A stretch of 64,000 bases of DNA from Secundilactobacillus odoratitofui DSM 19909 = JCM 15043 (lineage in GTDB: Bacteria > Bacillota > Bacilli > Lactobacillales > Lactobacillaceae), in the NCBI RefSeq assembly GCF_001434895.1, contig NZ_AZEE01000029.1, positions 163,267 to 227,266 on the forward strand, given 5' to 3'. The position numbers and the translations under genes were made by a program. This document shows, piece after piece, positions 1 through 49,507 of the stretch. The notes beneath the pieces were generated by a model. The model was not told where the DNA came from. It saw only the letters and a list, made by a program, of their open reading frames with translations, and did no database searches. Numbering within the stretch: position 1 is the stretch's first letter; each line of letters opens with the position of its first letter.

Positions 1-178
1 AATCAGCTACTCAGAGTTCATCTTTGCAGACCTTCTGAATGCTCCCTTTCAGCTACCGGAGTTCTCTGTAATCAGTCATTCTGCGCTCTTCTCTTCAAAG
101 CAATCGATTAACAAATTAAAATTTAATGATAAATATAATCGCTTCTGTCCGGAATGTCAAGCCGGCAGCCAACTCAAA

Positions 179-1476: not shown

Positions 1477-1499
1477 GTTTTAGACGTTATTTAACAACG

Positions 1500-1582
1500 T
1501 TAACTTTCCTACGCGAGGGTTAGCTCACAGGTTCAAAGGGTTCGGTCGGTCACCGTCTCAGCAATATGCGCCCCTAGTTAAT
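1500..1582 (-). promoter_or_regulatory. TPP riboswitch controlling tenA
   Basis: On the minus strand the segment shows the thi-box hallmarks in order: AGGGGCGC, GCTGAGA, then ACCCTTTGAACCTG and a closing GCGTAGGAAAGTT. A terminator follows at 1444-1476, so ligand binding probably stops transcription. An extended -10 (TGGTATACT on the minus strand, hexamer at 1598-1603) lies just upstream. Confidence 0.93.
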
Positions 1583-1798
1583 TGATTTATTTAATCAAGT
1601 ATACCACAGCTCAAATGATTCGTTCGGGAATTGTATTTGCCCTTTAGAGGATTCCGATGGCTTCTCCAGTCAGCGATTATTTCAAACCGTAATTCCTGAA
1701 TTAGGGTAGCTTTTGGCGAAAATAGCTAGTATGATAAATTAAACTTTTCAAATAATTACATTAAATTCGTTTTAATTTTTCACAATAAACTGAAATTC

Positions 1799-45436: not shown

Positions 45437-45712
45437 ACAAAAACGTCCTTTCTCATTCAATCACTTGAACGAAAAAGGACGTTTGCACGCGGTACCACCT
45501 TTATTCCATGTCAACTGCCTAAAAACAATTGCCATGACACTTCAGCTACAGCACAAGTGCTATAACCTACCACTGTAACGGGCGGACCCGATATCACCTA
45601 ACCCCTAGGCTCAGCGATACGACTTGATTGAGACCATCTTCAACTGTTATCTTCGATCGCTTTTCACCAAGCAGCGACTCTCTGAGCGAAAACTGCAGTT
45701 TACTCATCTCAA
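45437..45712 (-). promoter_or_regulatory. Met-specific T-box riboswitch
   Basis: On the minus strand: TTGAGA/TCTCAA closing stem, AGTA on the 5' side and GAAG-ATG-G on the 3' side of the specifier loop (ATG at 45635-45637), AGAGAGT and a GGTGAAAAGCG distal arm, T-box GGTGGTACCGCG (45488-45499) and an 18-bp terminator AAACGTCCTTT with T5. The AGTA/GAA loop E pattern fixes the register, giving Met. Confidence 0.85.
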
Positions 45713-45740
45713 CGTTTAGTTGTTCGATTAAGTTGTCATA

Positions 45741-45897: not shown

Positions 45898-46491
45898 TTA
45901 TTCCCGATTCGTCCTCAGTTTGATCGGCTCACGTTGCTTTTCGAGTTGATCAGGCTGATTGATTGGCAAGGTCATCACCTTAGTCGGGTGATGAATCATC
46001 CGAGCTGGATTACCCACTGCCGTATCACCCGCCGAAACATCCTGTAATACAACAGCCCCGGCCCCAACCTTGGCGCCCTCACCAATGGTCACCGTGCCGA
46101 GAATTTGGGCATTCGCCCCAATAAAAGCGCCCCGTTTCACGATAGGATGGCGACGGCCAGTTTTCGTAACGTTATGACGTGCACCCAGTGTCACGCCGTG
46201 CAATAACGTGACATCATCTTCAATAACTGCTGTGGCACCAATCACGACACCAATGCCATGATCGATAAAAACCCGTTGTCCGATTTGTGCTGCTGGCGCG
46301 ATGCTGATTCCGGTCACTTTAGCAGCATGCTGACTAATTAAACCAGCCACTAAATAGTGGTGCCGCTGGTCTAACGCGTGTGCAAGTCGATGCCAAAACA
46401 GCGCGCGGAATCCTGGATAGGTCAAAACGACCGCCAGCAAACTATGGGCAGCAGGATCACGCTTGAGGATGGCCCGTGCTGTCTGTAACAT
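45898..46491 (-). CDS. cysE: Serine O-acetyltransferase CysE
   Basis: 197 residues. The left-handed beta-helix of hexapeptide repeats is evident from about 65 (ISIAPAAQIGQRVFIDHGIGVVIGATAVIEDDV..LLHGVTLG), with catalytic His in IDHGIG and LHGVTLG. It makes O-acetylserine for CysK. The ATG lies inside the preceding lyase gene (35-bp overlap). It lacks much of the N-terminal helical domain of long CysE proteins, as usual in Firmicutes. Confidence 0.92.
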   Translation of the reverse strand: MLQTARAILKRDPAAHSLLAVVLTYPGFRALFWHRLAHALDQRHHYLVAGLISQHAAKVTGISIAPAAQIGQRVFIDHGIGVVIGATAVIEDDVTLLHGVTLGARHNVTKTGRRHPIVKRGAFIGANAQILGTVTIGEGAKVGAGAVVLQDVSAGDTAVGNPARMIHHPTKVMTLPINQPDQLEKQREPIKLRTNRE

Positions 46492-47644
46492 GTTTGTCGC
46501 TCCCTTGAACGGCCATAAAGCCGCGATCTAAGTCGGCCAATAAGTCCTTGCTGTCTTCAACCCCAACTGACAGGCGGATCAACTCGTCCTTGATGCCATT
46601 TTTCAAGCGAATATCGCGTGGAATTGCGCCGTGCGTCATCAGTGCCGGAATTTCAATCAATGATTCCAGTGCGCCGAGACTTTCAGCCAAGGTGATCATC
46701 TGCAGATTTTCAACAAACGCCTTTGGATCTAACCCCGGTTGTAATTCAAACGAAATCATTGCACCAAAGCCGTGATGCATCTGCTTTTTAGCGACTTCAT
46801 AATCTGGATTATTTGGATCACCTGGATAATAAATTTTGGCGACAGATGGTTGATCAGAAAGGTAGTTGAAGACCGTCTGTGCATTGGCCAAATGTGCTTG
46901 CATCCGCACGGCAAGCGTCTTCATACCACGTTGCAATAGCCAGCTTTCTTGAGGGGCCAAAATGCCACCAATTGCGTTTTGGAGGTAGCCAATCTTTTCG
47001 CCCAACTTATCATCCTTGGTAACGATCACACCACCAATCACATCGGAGTGGCCACCCAAGTATTTAGATGCCGAATGTAAGACAATATCAACGCCTTGTT
47101 CGAGTGGTCGCTGAACGTATGGCGAACTGAACGTGTTGTCGATGATACTGAGTAAGTTATGATCACGGGCAACGTTAGCGACGGCCTCAATATCCGTCAC
47201 ACGTAACAACGGATTCGTTGGCGTTTCGAGGTAAATGGCTTTGGTAGCTGGGGTAATTGCTGCCTCGACCGCTTTTAAATCACGGGTATCCACGACACTA
47301 AACGTCATGCCAAACCGCTTCAACACTGTATCGATCAACCGGAACGTCCCACCGTAGACATCGTCACCAACAATGAAGTGGTCACCAGCGCTGAACATTG
47401 AGAAGACCGTATCAATGGCTGCCGAACCTGACGCAAACGCGAAGCCGCGAGTGCCACCCTCTAAGTCAGCGATTAAGGCTTCAACTGCCTCTCGAGTGGG
47501 GTTACCTGAGCGAGAATATTCATACTTTGATTCACCAATTTTCTTTTGGTGGAAAGTTGAGGCCATGTAGATTGGCATTGACGTTGCGCCTGTGTATGGA
47601 TCTTCACTGATACCACCGTGGATCAATTTCGTTTCAAATTTCAT
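46457..47644 (-). CDS. Cystathionine gamma-lyase/synthase-type PLP enzyme
   Basis: 395 residues. PLP lysine in LHSASKYLGGHSD (about residue 195), phosphate contacts in YEYSRSGNPTREAVE, and GFAFASGSAAIDTVF. With CysK and CysE it forms the LAB cluster that converts homocysteine through cystathionine to cysteine. Beta-lyase, gamma-lyase or gamma-synthase activity cannot be separated by eye. The C-terminus overlaps cysE. Confidence 0.88.
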   Translation of the reverse strand: MKFETKLIHGGISEDPYTGATSMPIYMASTFHQKKIGESKYEYSRSGNPTREAVEALIADLEGGTRGFAFASGSAAIDTVFSMFSAGDHFIVGDDVYGGTFRLIDTVLKRFGMTFSVVDTRDLKAVEAAITPATKAIYLETPTNPLLRVTDIEAVANVARDHNLLSIIDNTFSSPYVQRPLEQGVDIVLHSASKYLGGHSDVIGGVIVTKDDKLGEKIGYLQNAIGGILAPQESWLLQRGMKTLAVRMQAHLANAQTVFNYLSDQPSVAKIYYPGDPNNPDYEVAKKQMHHGFGAMISFELQPGLDPKAFVENLQMITLAESLGALESLIEIPALMTHGAIPRDIRLKNGIKDELIRLSVGVEDSKDLLADLDRGFMAVQGSDKHVTDSTGHPQA

Positions 47645-47705
47645 GAGCGTTACCTGCCTTTATATTTAAATTTTTTGATTGGGAAATTTGTCATTTTATT
47701 TTGCC

Positions 47706-47910
47706 GAATTGGGCTTCTCCACGCAGATAGCTGCATGTAAGGCCTGACCGGCACAAATCCAAAACCGGGATTTATGCGTTCGTTACTTTTACCGTGTCGA
47801 ATTGGGCTTCTCCACGCAGATAGCTGCATGTAAGGCCAGACCGGCACAAATCCAAAACCGGGATTTATGCCGGTCTGGCCTTACACTCCGCTATCTAACC
47901 GCGTGGTTCC
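47706..47910. repeat. 72-bp direct repeat ending in a long hairpin, inside the cys operon
   Basis: A 72-bp unit starting GAATTGGGCTTCTCCACGC occurs at 47706-47777 and 47799-47870 (period 93) with one visible substitution. The second copy continues into its inverted complement: AAGGCCAGACCGGC pairs with GCCGGTCTGGCCTT, AAATCC with GGGATTT, and outside GATAGC with GCTATC and CCACGC with GCGTGG. The first copy is a half-element without the 3' arm. Located between the cysK stop and the lyase start. Confidence 0.85.
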
Positions 47911-47915
47911 GCACC

Positions 47916-48824
47916 TTAGTCATAAATATTCTCACTCATATATCGCTCTGAGCTGTCCGGGAATACCGTTACGATGGTGCTATTGGCTGGTAATTGTTCA
48001 GCCACTTTTAGACTTGCTGCTAAGGCTGCACCCGATGAGCTACCGATGAAGAGGCCCTGTTGTGCCGCCATTAATTTCACTTGTTCGAAGGCGTCCTTAT
48101 CTGCAATCGTGAGGGTTTGATCAATCTGCACATCCTCGAAAAACGGTGGGATGAATTCGACGCCGATGCCCTCCGTCTTGTGGGCGTGTGCCGGGCCACC
48201 ATTTAAAATGGAGCCTTCTGGTTCGACCACGATTGCTTGCGTTTGTGGCCGTTGTTCTTTCAAATACTTAGCGATTCCCGCAAAGGTGCCACCCGAACCG
48301 GCACCGGCAACAAAAGCATCAATTGGTTGCTGCAAATCAGCCGTCAGCTCAGGTGCTAACGTATGGTAATACGTCGCCGGATTCGCCGGGTTTTCAAATT
48401 GCATTGGTACATAACTATTAGTGATTTGTTGTTCAAGTTCTCGCGCCTTTTTGATGGCACCCTTGATACCATCCGCTGATGGCGTGTTAATTAAAGTTGC
48501 CCCCAACGCTTTCATCAATGTCTGCTTCTCATAACTGAACTTCTCCGGCACCACCAAAATAGTCGGTAAATGATGTTGCTGCGCTGCTAACGCAACACCG
48601 ATACCCGTATTGCCGGCAGTTGGTTCAATGATGGTTGTTGTTTCATTGATTTTGCCGCGCTCAATACCATCTTGAATTAAATATTGTCCCAAACGATCCT
48701 TGATGCTACCGCCTGGATTAAACATTTCCAACTTAGCATAGATATGCGACTGATTTGGAACTTCGATTTGTAAGTCGATCAACGGGGTGTGACCGATAAG
48801 TTCCTGAACTGACTTAATAATCAT
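47916..48824 (-). CDS. cysK: Cysteine synthase / cystathionine beta-synthase-type enzyme
   Basis: 302 residues of the OASS fold. PLP Lys42 in GGSIKDRLG, the substrate loop [14 protein letters not shown] (T-G-N-T) and the phosphate-binding [10 protein letters not shown]. The family condenses O-acetylserine with sulfide, or serine/O-acetylserine with homocysteine. Following genes for a cystathionine lyase and CysE favour the reverse transsulfuration use. First structural gene behind a Cys-rich leader peptide and attenuator. Confidence 0.92.
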
Positions 48825-48986
48825 CTTGATTTTCCTTTCCTCGCTGCTGTTAGCTTTGGTTGGTCGGGATAATTGTTGGGGGTCGCTGTGAAATGAGCTA
48901 AGTCACTTGGTCTGCATACTTTTCACCAGACTTACTCAACTCATCTGGTATACGCAAAACGTAGTCTTCAACTCATTTTTTCTAAC

Positions 48987-49052
48987 AAAAAAGGGGCACG
49001 GAATTCTTCACAGAATTCGCGTGCCCCACTCTCCGTTCCACCTGGAACAGAG
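48987..49052 (-). terminator. Attenuator terminator and preceding hairpin of the cys operon
   Basis: On the minus strand CTCTGTTCC-AGGT-GGAACGGAG (49031-49052) precedes GGGGCAC(GC)GAATTC-TGTGAA-GAATTCCGTGCCCC followed by six T (48987-49027). It lies between the leader peptide stop and cysK, about 165 bases ahead of the structural gene. Confidence 0.88.
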
Positions 49053-49089
49053 ACTTTAAGGTCAACAATTACCCTTCAAAAGTCAATGC

Positions 49090-49170
49090 TTAACAGGCCG
49101 AACATCGTAGTACACGCGATGTCCGACAACAAGTGTTTTGTAACTTGGCATTGATTGAATGGGTTGTCAT
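49090..49170 (-). CDS. 26-residue Cys-rich leader peptide of the cysK operon
   Basis: The ATG at 49170 follows a perfect GAGGAGG, seven bases away, about 25 nt after the predicted transcription start. The peptide begins MTTHSINAKLQNT, continues CCRTSRVLRC and ends SAC: four TGT codons in 26, two adjacent at 49126-49131. The adjacent pair immediately precedes a hairpin CGGACATCG/CGATGTTCG (49099-49125). A stalled ribosome at the Cys codons would open that hairpin and could prevent the downstream terminator. This is the arrangement of classical amino acid attenuation. Confidence 0.82.
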   Translation of the reverse strand: MTTHSINAKLQNTCCRTSRVLRCSAC

Positions 49171-49200
49171 GTTGTTGCCTCCTCTTGTTTGGTTGTGGCT

Positions 49201-49229
49201 AATATACCTTCTACGAAATTACTTGTCAA
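49201..49229 (-). promoter_or_regulatory. Promoter of the cysK operon
   Basis: On the minus strand TTGACA (49224-49229), 17-base spacer, TATATT (49201-49206). The start of transcription falls near 49194, too close to the leader ATG for a T-box Stem I. Confidence 0.88.
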
Positions 49230-49507
49230 ATCATTTTTATCACTGCGGTATTCAAAGTAGTCCAATGAAAGCTGGCTACGACTGGCTTTGCTTGTGATTA
49301 ATTTATTTTTTAATTGGGTCACTTGATGCGTTGCTGATTTGAATCAGTGGACCTTCACTAGTTTGATCTTCGATGCCATGGGCAAAATCAACTATACCAA
49401 TTCCAATTTATTTTCAAAATCAAACTATACTTACAATGCTAAAACAGCTCACTTTTTGAATAATGTGCTAAAATGAGCATTAAATAAAGTCATGAGGGGG
49501 ATATTTT

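Follow-up and report, generated by a model that had tools for sequence, protein, structure and literature searches.

The window, a stretch of 64,000 nucleotides from Secundilactobacillus odoratitofui DSM 19909 = JCM 15043, carries the genes cysK, ctl and cysE on its minus strand, preceded by a leader region with a promoter, a short open reading frame (ORF) and an intrinsic terminator. The features are given below in the direction of transcription, with positions of the window.

49224..49229, minus strand: promoter −35 hexamer TTGACA, 17-nt spacer to the −10 hexamer
49201..49206, minus strand: promoter −10 hexamer TATATT
49178..49184, minus strand: ribosome site (SD) GAGGAGG of the leader ORF
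49148..49181, minus strand: SD end and early codons, predicted to pair with 49089-49058 in the full-length fold
49090..49170, minus strand: leader ORF MTTHSINAKLQNTCCRTSRVLRCSAC*, 26 codons with four Cys, kept in relatives
49126..49131, minus strand: tandem Cys codons TGT TGT, putative stall site
49104-49102 and 49095-49093, minus strand: further leader Cys codons
49097..49127, minus strand: hairpin 1 (protector), 11 pairs, −14.1 kcal/mol
49094..49119, minus strand: predicted antiterminator 5′ side (hairpin 1 loop and 3′ arm), core UCGCGUGU at 49119-49112
49058..49089, minus strand: segment after the stop codon, predicted partner of the SD end and early codons
49030..49053, minus strand: hairpin 2, UCUCUGUUCC/GGAACGGAGA, −14.6 kcal/mol, exclusive with the extended antiterminator
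49017..49044, minus strand: predicted antiterminator 3′ side, core GCACGCGA at 49024-49017
48987..49027, minus strand: intrinsic terminator, stem 49027-48993 (−25.2 kcal/mol), T6 at 48992-48987
47916..48824, minus strand: cysK, PLP-dependent cysteine synthase family
46457..47644, minus strand: ctl, Cys/Met metabolism PLP enzyme of the cystathionine lyase type
45898..46491, minus strand: cysE, serine O-acetyltransferase

A first-pass annotation had taken this region for a cysteine leader-peptide attenuator, and all of the parts it named were recovered. The promoter, described there as consensus, is near-consensus with 11 of 12 matches (TTGACA-17-TATATT, 49229-49201), and transcription probably starts near 49194, about 24 nt before the leader ORF; by count alone the promoter is not significant, with 1 found against 2.3 expected in shuffles. 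The ribosome site, the 26-codon ORF with its four Cys codons, two of them adjacent, and the terminator with T6 are all present on the minus strand, where the 3′ end of the ORF reads ...TCCRTSRVLRCSAC. A terminator scan did not list the window terminator, the stem of which contains a bulge. The hairpin that had been placed directly after the Cys pair exists, with 11 pairs instead of 9 (arms 49127-49117 and 49107-49097) and with its 5′ start lying within the second of the two Cys codons. Hairpin 2 is also present and is more than a spacer: in the stalled-state fold the extended antiterminator replaces it. This antiterminator has a 3′ side made of the loop and 3′ arm of hairpin 2 plus the terminator 5′ arm; competing with hairpin 1 and the terminator, it was absent from the first description.

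For the leader of 225 nt the folding energy is −88.4 kcal/mol, compared with −54.3 ± 4.5 in 200 shuffles (z −7.5). Such a strong fold in a terminator-linked 5′ UTR could also belong to a riboswitch or T-box with direct binding of a metabolite or of uncharged tRNA, the ORF being incidental, and S-box or T-box like control was considered by the authors of a study on Lacticaseibacillus paracasei (PMC6004538). We regard this as very unlikely, given that Rfam has no match at gathering score in the window leader or in L111, L115 and L091, with three weak matches to unrelated families in the former up to E 10, that the probable start lies only about 24 nt from the ORF, and that ORF, SD and Cys run persist across families of differing RNA. 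The earlier exclusion of a T-box agrees with the absence of any RF00230 match in 48840-49300 up to E 10, and SAM and other Rfam riboswitches likewise had no match in the leader. The T-box of the window is elsewhere, at 45472-45719 on the minus strand (RF00230, 99.7 bits), before a gene for a D-2-hydroxyacid dehydrogenase (lactate type) that lies right behind cysE, and its specifier, read by eye, may be AUG or GAU. A TPP riboswitch lies at 1489-1585 (minus strand).

A possible intergenic repeat element between ctl and cysK, at 47694-47896, consists of an 84-nt sequence present twice in direct orientation (94%) together with an inverted repeat of 36 nt. In L003 and L004 (S. yichangensis and S. 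angelensis) other palindromes are located between terminator and cysK. CysK, Ctl and CysE of the window (45898-48824, minus strand) contain zero cysteine in 897 letters, three stops included, which would suit enzymes produced during cysteine shortage.

Conservation of the leader ahead of cysK

Among named cysK loci the nearest to that of the window is Secundilactobacillus folii (89%). The first sample consisted of the best 80 of 248 such loci, 73 of them Lactobacillales in the GTDB sense with Listeria grayi counted in; one locus with only 127 nt upstream (L074) was left out as too short to judge. Within these best 80, a short ORF with adjacent Cys codons was found upstream of cysK in 72 of 72 testable Lactobacillales loci, some of them near kin (71 by script, and Oenococcus kitaharae, L082, by eye), and a Cys-run leader in 0 of the 7 loci outside the order (L099, L100, L104, L107-L110). 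More distant cysK paralogs of the same order (L023-L030, 41-45% identity) had such an upstream ORF in 0 of 8 cases. The first-pass view that this control would be unusual for the group is thus wrong as a statement of frequency, while the check which it had set beforehand, conservation of the ORF and its Cys codons, turned out in its favour, both being kept in relatives.

An SD followed by a short ORF with adjacent Cys occurred in 51 of 1600 random windows of 560 nt taken elsewhere in 80 related loci (3.2%, strict criteria), in 198 (12.4%) with relaxed criteria, and in 23 (1.4%) when three Cys close together were demanded. A chance origin of the leader is rejected by conservation and these random windows, and the decisive evidence is the conservation, not the single site.

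A set of 81 distinct leaders with adjacent Cys codons, SD and terminator was built from 91 of 116 loci, adjacent Cys being the search criterion and the terminator a condition for keeping that cost none of the 71 leaders near cysK. The 25 loci left out were L001, L005, L007, L009, L014, L016 and L019, which all do have a leader, the 8 paralogs, L021 and 9 misses of the 80 named loci. The terminator recorded for L087 is probably a neighbouring hairpin.

Of the 295 genomes of the order in the second sample, which partly overlaps the first, 54 had this cysK at E up to 1e-100; these 54 include the window and 8 further members of its family. A Cys-run leader was found with relaxed criteria in 49 of the 52 examined, 40 of the 49 in other families, and the three genomes of genus g37 (L021, L196, L234) all have this cysK without a detected Cys leader. 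This cysK is absent from most genomes of the order, so the leader rule concerns the gene and not every genome; with that scope, a Cys-run leader looks like the rule for this cysK in Lactobacillales.

Within the runs, 170 Cys codons are TGT and 44 are TGC, a mixture from which it follows that the amino acid is kept and not one base string. The leaders hold 2 to 6 Cys each, and about 15% of the residues of the 81 peptides are Cys. The peptides fall into groups: CC(C)RTxRxxRCSAC in Secundi-, Lenti- and Lactiplantibacillus and Weissella, CCSTTRFRCCTAC in Leuconostoc, CCCESRLMRLTFWYTHF in Limosilactobacillus, and CCCGSRLMRPTSWCA in Pauci-, Loigo- and Companilactobacillus, with CCCTCCTVYSSC, CCCLCCIDHSC and CCCMVQ in other families of the order. 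Between families they have little in common but the Cys run. Such Cys-rich peptides, one of which in Enterococcus faecalis (L115 1274-1411, plus strand) is annotated as a hypothetical protein (WP_002355203.1), might be functional microproteins that bind metal or thiols and stand before the operon by chance. This reading has next to no probability in our judgement: outside the Cys run the peptides of different families hardly resemble each other, the residues conserved within groups are explicable by two overlapping RNA pairings, and the two peptides tried, those of the window and of E. faecalis, have no match in Pfam or NCBIfam.

When the Cys-run requirement was dropped, covariance models also found Cys-X-Cys leaders before ctl and transporter genes. 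Cys-Phe-Cys replaces the adjacent Cys before ctl in the Weissella-like genus g19 (L135, L141, L147, L148, L151) with the rest of the motif largely retained, a natural variant of the putative stall site. Four of seven transporter leaders, all from genus g47 (L223, L227, L228, L230), have Cys-Leu-Cys or Cys-Pro-Cys.

Covariation and the predicted RNA states

The segment right after the Cys run is complementary to the terminator 5′ arm. UCGCGUGU pairs with GCACGCGA in the window, and the same helix is built from other bases in L017 (GUGUCAAUU with AAUUGACAC), L072 (GCGUCUUAUGC with GUAUAAGACGC) and L064 (CACGUUUUCGA with UCGAAAGCGUG). A swap test, pairing the post-Cys-run segment with the terminator 5′ arm of its own leader or of another species, gave −16.4 kcal/mol for own against −12.4 kcal/mol for permuted pairs in the 81 leaders, and 0 of 20,000 permutations were as good. 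With 25 representatives chosen by us, a single one for each genus or leader group, z was −9.1 in the window −3..21 and −9.4 in the window 3..27, counted in nt from the end of the Cys run (0 of 20,000), the signal being confined to these and overlapping windows; apart from the use of representatives the permutations are tree-blind. In a map of 715 window pairs the strongest coupling was that of hairpin 1, at z −10.6; the antiterminator came next at z −9.6, its extension having −5 to −7, and then the coupling between SD/early-codon region and post-stop segment, for which z was −5 to −6.

In an alignment of 31 leaders, 88.8% of antiterminator cells were paired against 27-63% when slid, a control that leans in favour of these structures since they were read from members of the set; double-changed cells numbered 16 against 6.6 in shuffles, and the 4 pairs with change on both sides were reached by 63 of 500 shuffles. 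The corresponding values in an alignment of 19 leaders were 95.8% against 29-56% under the same lenient control, 11 cells against 2.3, and 4 pairs reached by 23 of 500 shuffles. Hairpin 1 had its 8 homologous pairs 99.2% paired in the 31 leaders and 82.5% paired in the 19, where one pair is mostly unpaired. Its both-side-changed cells exceeded all shuffles in both alignments, and its changed-pair and pair-type counts were not above shuffles (468 and 496 of 500 with 31 leaders, 492 and 499 of 500 with 19).

At the level of the order, 40 leaders, 37 of them outside the first set and some of these close kin of it, gave −13.7 for own against −10.9 for permuted pairs (0 of 20,000), with z −6.1 for 22 representatives; the ORF used for L204 differs from the Cys-rich leader listed for that locus. 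In 11 of 16 Enterococcus-type (CCCMV-like) leaders (L022, L201, L202, L207, L209, L232, L233, L236, L238, L239, L248) the own pairing lay between −6.4 and −8.9 and thus fell short of the mean of permuted pairs, −10.9; in these the switch may use other segments. E. faecalis itself had −15.4. The parts of the leader, their conservation and the covariation of hairpin 1 and antiterminator can be read directly from the sequences. The predicted antiterminator, overlapping the terminator and the protector hairpin, is backed by covariation.

The front edge of a stalled ribosome is taken as 9 nt past the Cys run. When the RNA was folded from there to the terminator 5′ arm, 79 of 81 leaders were predicted to make an antiterminator with 6 or more expected pairs; L022 and L091 did not reach this number, and Listeria grayi had no antiterminator in this analysis. 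The stalled fold of the window, computed from 6 nt after the run, is predicted to be one long rod of −46.9 kcal/mol with the pairs UCGCGUGU:GCACGCGA, CUAC:GUGG, UGUUC:GAACG, GCCUG:CAGGU and further ones, which takes up the 3′ arm of hairpin 1 and dissolves hairpin 2. In the free state the leader of the window is predicted to fold instead into hairpins 1 and 2 plus the early-codon pairing, and the expected antiterminator pairs are 10.5 in the stalled against 0.4 in the free state. The pairing of SD end and early codons is predicted in 76 of 81 leaders, the pre-terminator fold of the window keeping only its early-codon part. Across the set, 38 of 81 leaders still have the antiterminator in the free pre-terminator state, and only 45 of 81 have hairpin 1 with at least 6 pairs; once the full terminator is made, all 81 form it, whether stalled or free. 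The switch must therefore be kinetic, like that of classical attenuators. Equilibrium folding, which fails to separate the two states in about half of the set, was rejected as proof of the switch. The choice would be made during transcription, with hairpin 1 formed first.

We read the leader, with a probability of about 0.9, as a ribosome-mediated transcription attenuator that senses the supply of cysteinyl-tRNA. The sequence features by which such an attenuator is recognized were found together: promoter, SD and short ORF, a conserved Cys run, a terminator before the first gene and a covarying antiterminator. The mechanism put forward in the first-pass annotation is supported as the best reading by the conserved Cys codons and the covarying antiterminator, and from the same parts we infer translation of the ORF, stall, termination and read-through. 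RNA polymerase would start about 24 nt upstream of the ORF with a ribosome following. When cysteine is ample, the ribosome would pass the tandem Cys codons and depart at the stop codon, hairpin 1 would form behind it, the SD end and early codons would pair with the post-stop segment, and the terminator would form and stop transcription before cysK. When cysteine is short, the ribosome would stall with a Cys codon in its A site and cover the 5′ arm of hairpin 1, freeing the loop and 3′ arm to pair with the 3′ side of hairpin 2 and the terminator 5′ arm; this long antiterminator would be made before the terminator 3′ arm, and the polymerase would read into cysK-ctl-cysE. A ribosome that has departed, or none at all, would lead to termination, and the SD/early-codon pairing may block re-initiation on the leader.

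The predicted pairings involve the leader SD region, and translation attenuation is stated for cysteine genes of Mycobacterium smegmatis (PMC13236596), so that the stall might act on cysK translation or mRNA decay and not on transcription termination, an action proposed for mycobacterial polycysteine attenuators. That is unlikely to a high degree here, since the pairing SD is the leader's own and not that of cysK, all 71 script-found leaders of the best 80 of 248 loci have an intrinsic terminator ahead of cysK and behind the ORF, and the excess of 5′-UTR reads in L. paracasei fits termination (PMC6004538).

Genes behind the leaders and the plasmid operon of L. paracasei

Two covariance models, R1 and R2, were run on 301 genomes of the family and gave 44 matches in 41 genomes and 52 in 46, respectively, the two overlapping; the remaining genomes had no match to either at E up to 0.01. 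In the genome of the window R1 found a single copy, the one described here, at E up to 1. The genes behind the 44 R1 matches were 36 cysK, 7 ctl (with no cysK within the available stretch) and 1 OppA-like. Fifty R2 matches stood before 26 cysK, 15 ctl, 7 cystine-type ABC transporters, 1 metA-like gene with cysK and 1 unrelated gene, and the other two (L159, L122) both before cysK. The unrelated case, L229 with phage-like genes, was taken as chance; the genes behind the other matches fit cysteine supply, this one chance match apart. The metA-like gene with cysK fits the statement that the product of a metA-like gene is a serine acetyltransferase in L. paracasei (PMC6004538).

For the transporters, the best NCBIfam models were cystine permease and cystine ATPase in L179 and, in the incomplete L228, cystine-binding protein, all below curated cut-offs; in L180 a ctl-like start precedes the transporter. 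The leader before the OppA-like peptide-binding protein gene (L150) starts with GTG and contains four consecutive Cys codons; its place before this gene suggests that peptides serve to supply cysteine.

In L. paracasei FAM18149, cysK2-ctl1-cysE2 lie on plasmid pFAM18149.25, preceded by the leader MSQSMFNAINCCCRTTRFWRCSAC and the terminator AAGGGCGCGAAA-N16-TTTCGCGCCCTT. Expression of this operon was reported in 2018 to be about 8-fold higher in cysteine- than in methionine-deficient medium, with log2 changes of −2.9 to −3.2 for methionine- versus cysteine-deficient medium (PMC6004538). The authors noted high 5′-UTR coverage and suspected premature termination; they found no T-box, described a palindrome within a Rho-independent terminator and called the induction mechanism 'yet to be discovered' (PMC6004538). 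The available text of that article mentions no leader peptide and does not contain 'attenuat'. An antisense RNA at the 3′ end of the operon (PMC6004538) is a possible further control.

The palindrome, quoted in the same article as upstream of cystathionine genes in lactobacilli and presented there, with credit to Liu et al. 2012, as a possible regulatory motif (PMC6004538), could be a DNA operator for a repressor or activator, with the short ORF unrelated. This is highly improbable: the palindrome of FAM18149 is the terminator stem, followed by T5, and an operator would have no need of the covariation found in the family between the terminator 5′ arm and the part of the ORF that follows the Cys run.

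The cysK gene is named cystathionine beta-synthase in L. paracasei, where the cluster converts methionine to cysteine and has been associated with the sulfur flavours of cheese (PMC6004538); high mobility has been ascribed to the cysK-ctl-cysE cluster (PMC6200037). Of 45 plasmid records that matched cysK at E up to 1e-60, 32 came from Lacticaseibacillus.

Relation to known attenuators and meaning for Lactobacillales

The operons of the trp, his, leu and ilv type have ribosome-mediated transcription attenuators. The cysteine leader resembles them in its SD and short ORF with a codon run for the regulated amino acid, in the biosynthetic operon downstream, and in a protector, antiterminator and intrinsic terminator with common segments. 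It differs in the amino acid and in its spread across Lactobacillales, in having the protector hairpin inside the coding sequence just past the Cys run, and in the extra predicted pairing over the leader's own SD end and early codons.

Mycobacterial polycysteine attenuators, reportedly the subject of work by Canestrari in 2020, share the Cys-run ORF ahead of cysteine genes. Polycysteine leader ORFs before cysteine genes are described for Actinobacteria including mycobacteria, where the available text reports no conserved terminator hairpin and calls the mycobacterial ORFs leaderless (PMC1262725), whereas the leader described here has an SD (GAGGAGG), a terminator and a covarying antiterminator. 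Similar by its description, with no comparison of sequences, is uORFC-8-2 before cysS in Rhodobacterales, a tandem-Cys uORF with terminator and proposed read-through on Cys-tRNA shortage, found in Alphaproteobacteria and before a tRNA synthetase gene (PMC8632094). In the same phylum, Firmicutes, leader-peptide attenuators of this kind are reported for amino acids other than cysteine: a His leader before hisZ and before a hisS paralog in bacilli (PMC2965389), and branched-chain leaders in Staphylococcus aureus (PMC5794164) and Listeria monocytogenes (PMC5864092). A cysteine T-box lies before glnP2 in L. paracasei (PMC6004538); it has in common with the present leader that cysteinyl-tRNA is sensed and antitermination results, but a T-box senses the tRNA directly, without translation, and none was found here.

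No description of a Lactobacillales cysteine leader peptide was found in the open-access literature, subscription papers being mostly outside the search. On the evidence of sequence comparison, the leader would represent a known kind of mechanism of wide occurrence, undescribed in that literature as far as searched. We consider it probable that Lactobacillales have an order-wide cysteine regulon controlled by ribosome stalling, shut-off through the leader SD and early codons included, which largely replaces CymR and T-boxes. Its genes would be cysK-ctl-cysE, ctl, the cystine-type transporter, metA-cysK and oppA-like genes, and it would be plasmid-borne too, travelling with the mobile methionine-to-cysteine cluster.

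For L. paracasei, the attenuator would offer a concrete mechanism by which the mobile cysK-ctl-cysE operon is switched on without cysteine, the question raised in the available text of PMC6004538, and would explain the palindrome noted there as a terminator stem. The Cys leader may serve as a signature for spotting cysteine-related transporters. Where this cysK is present in Gram-positive food and gut bacteria, translation-coupled attenuation is suggested as its usual control.
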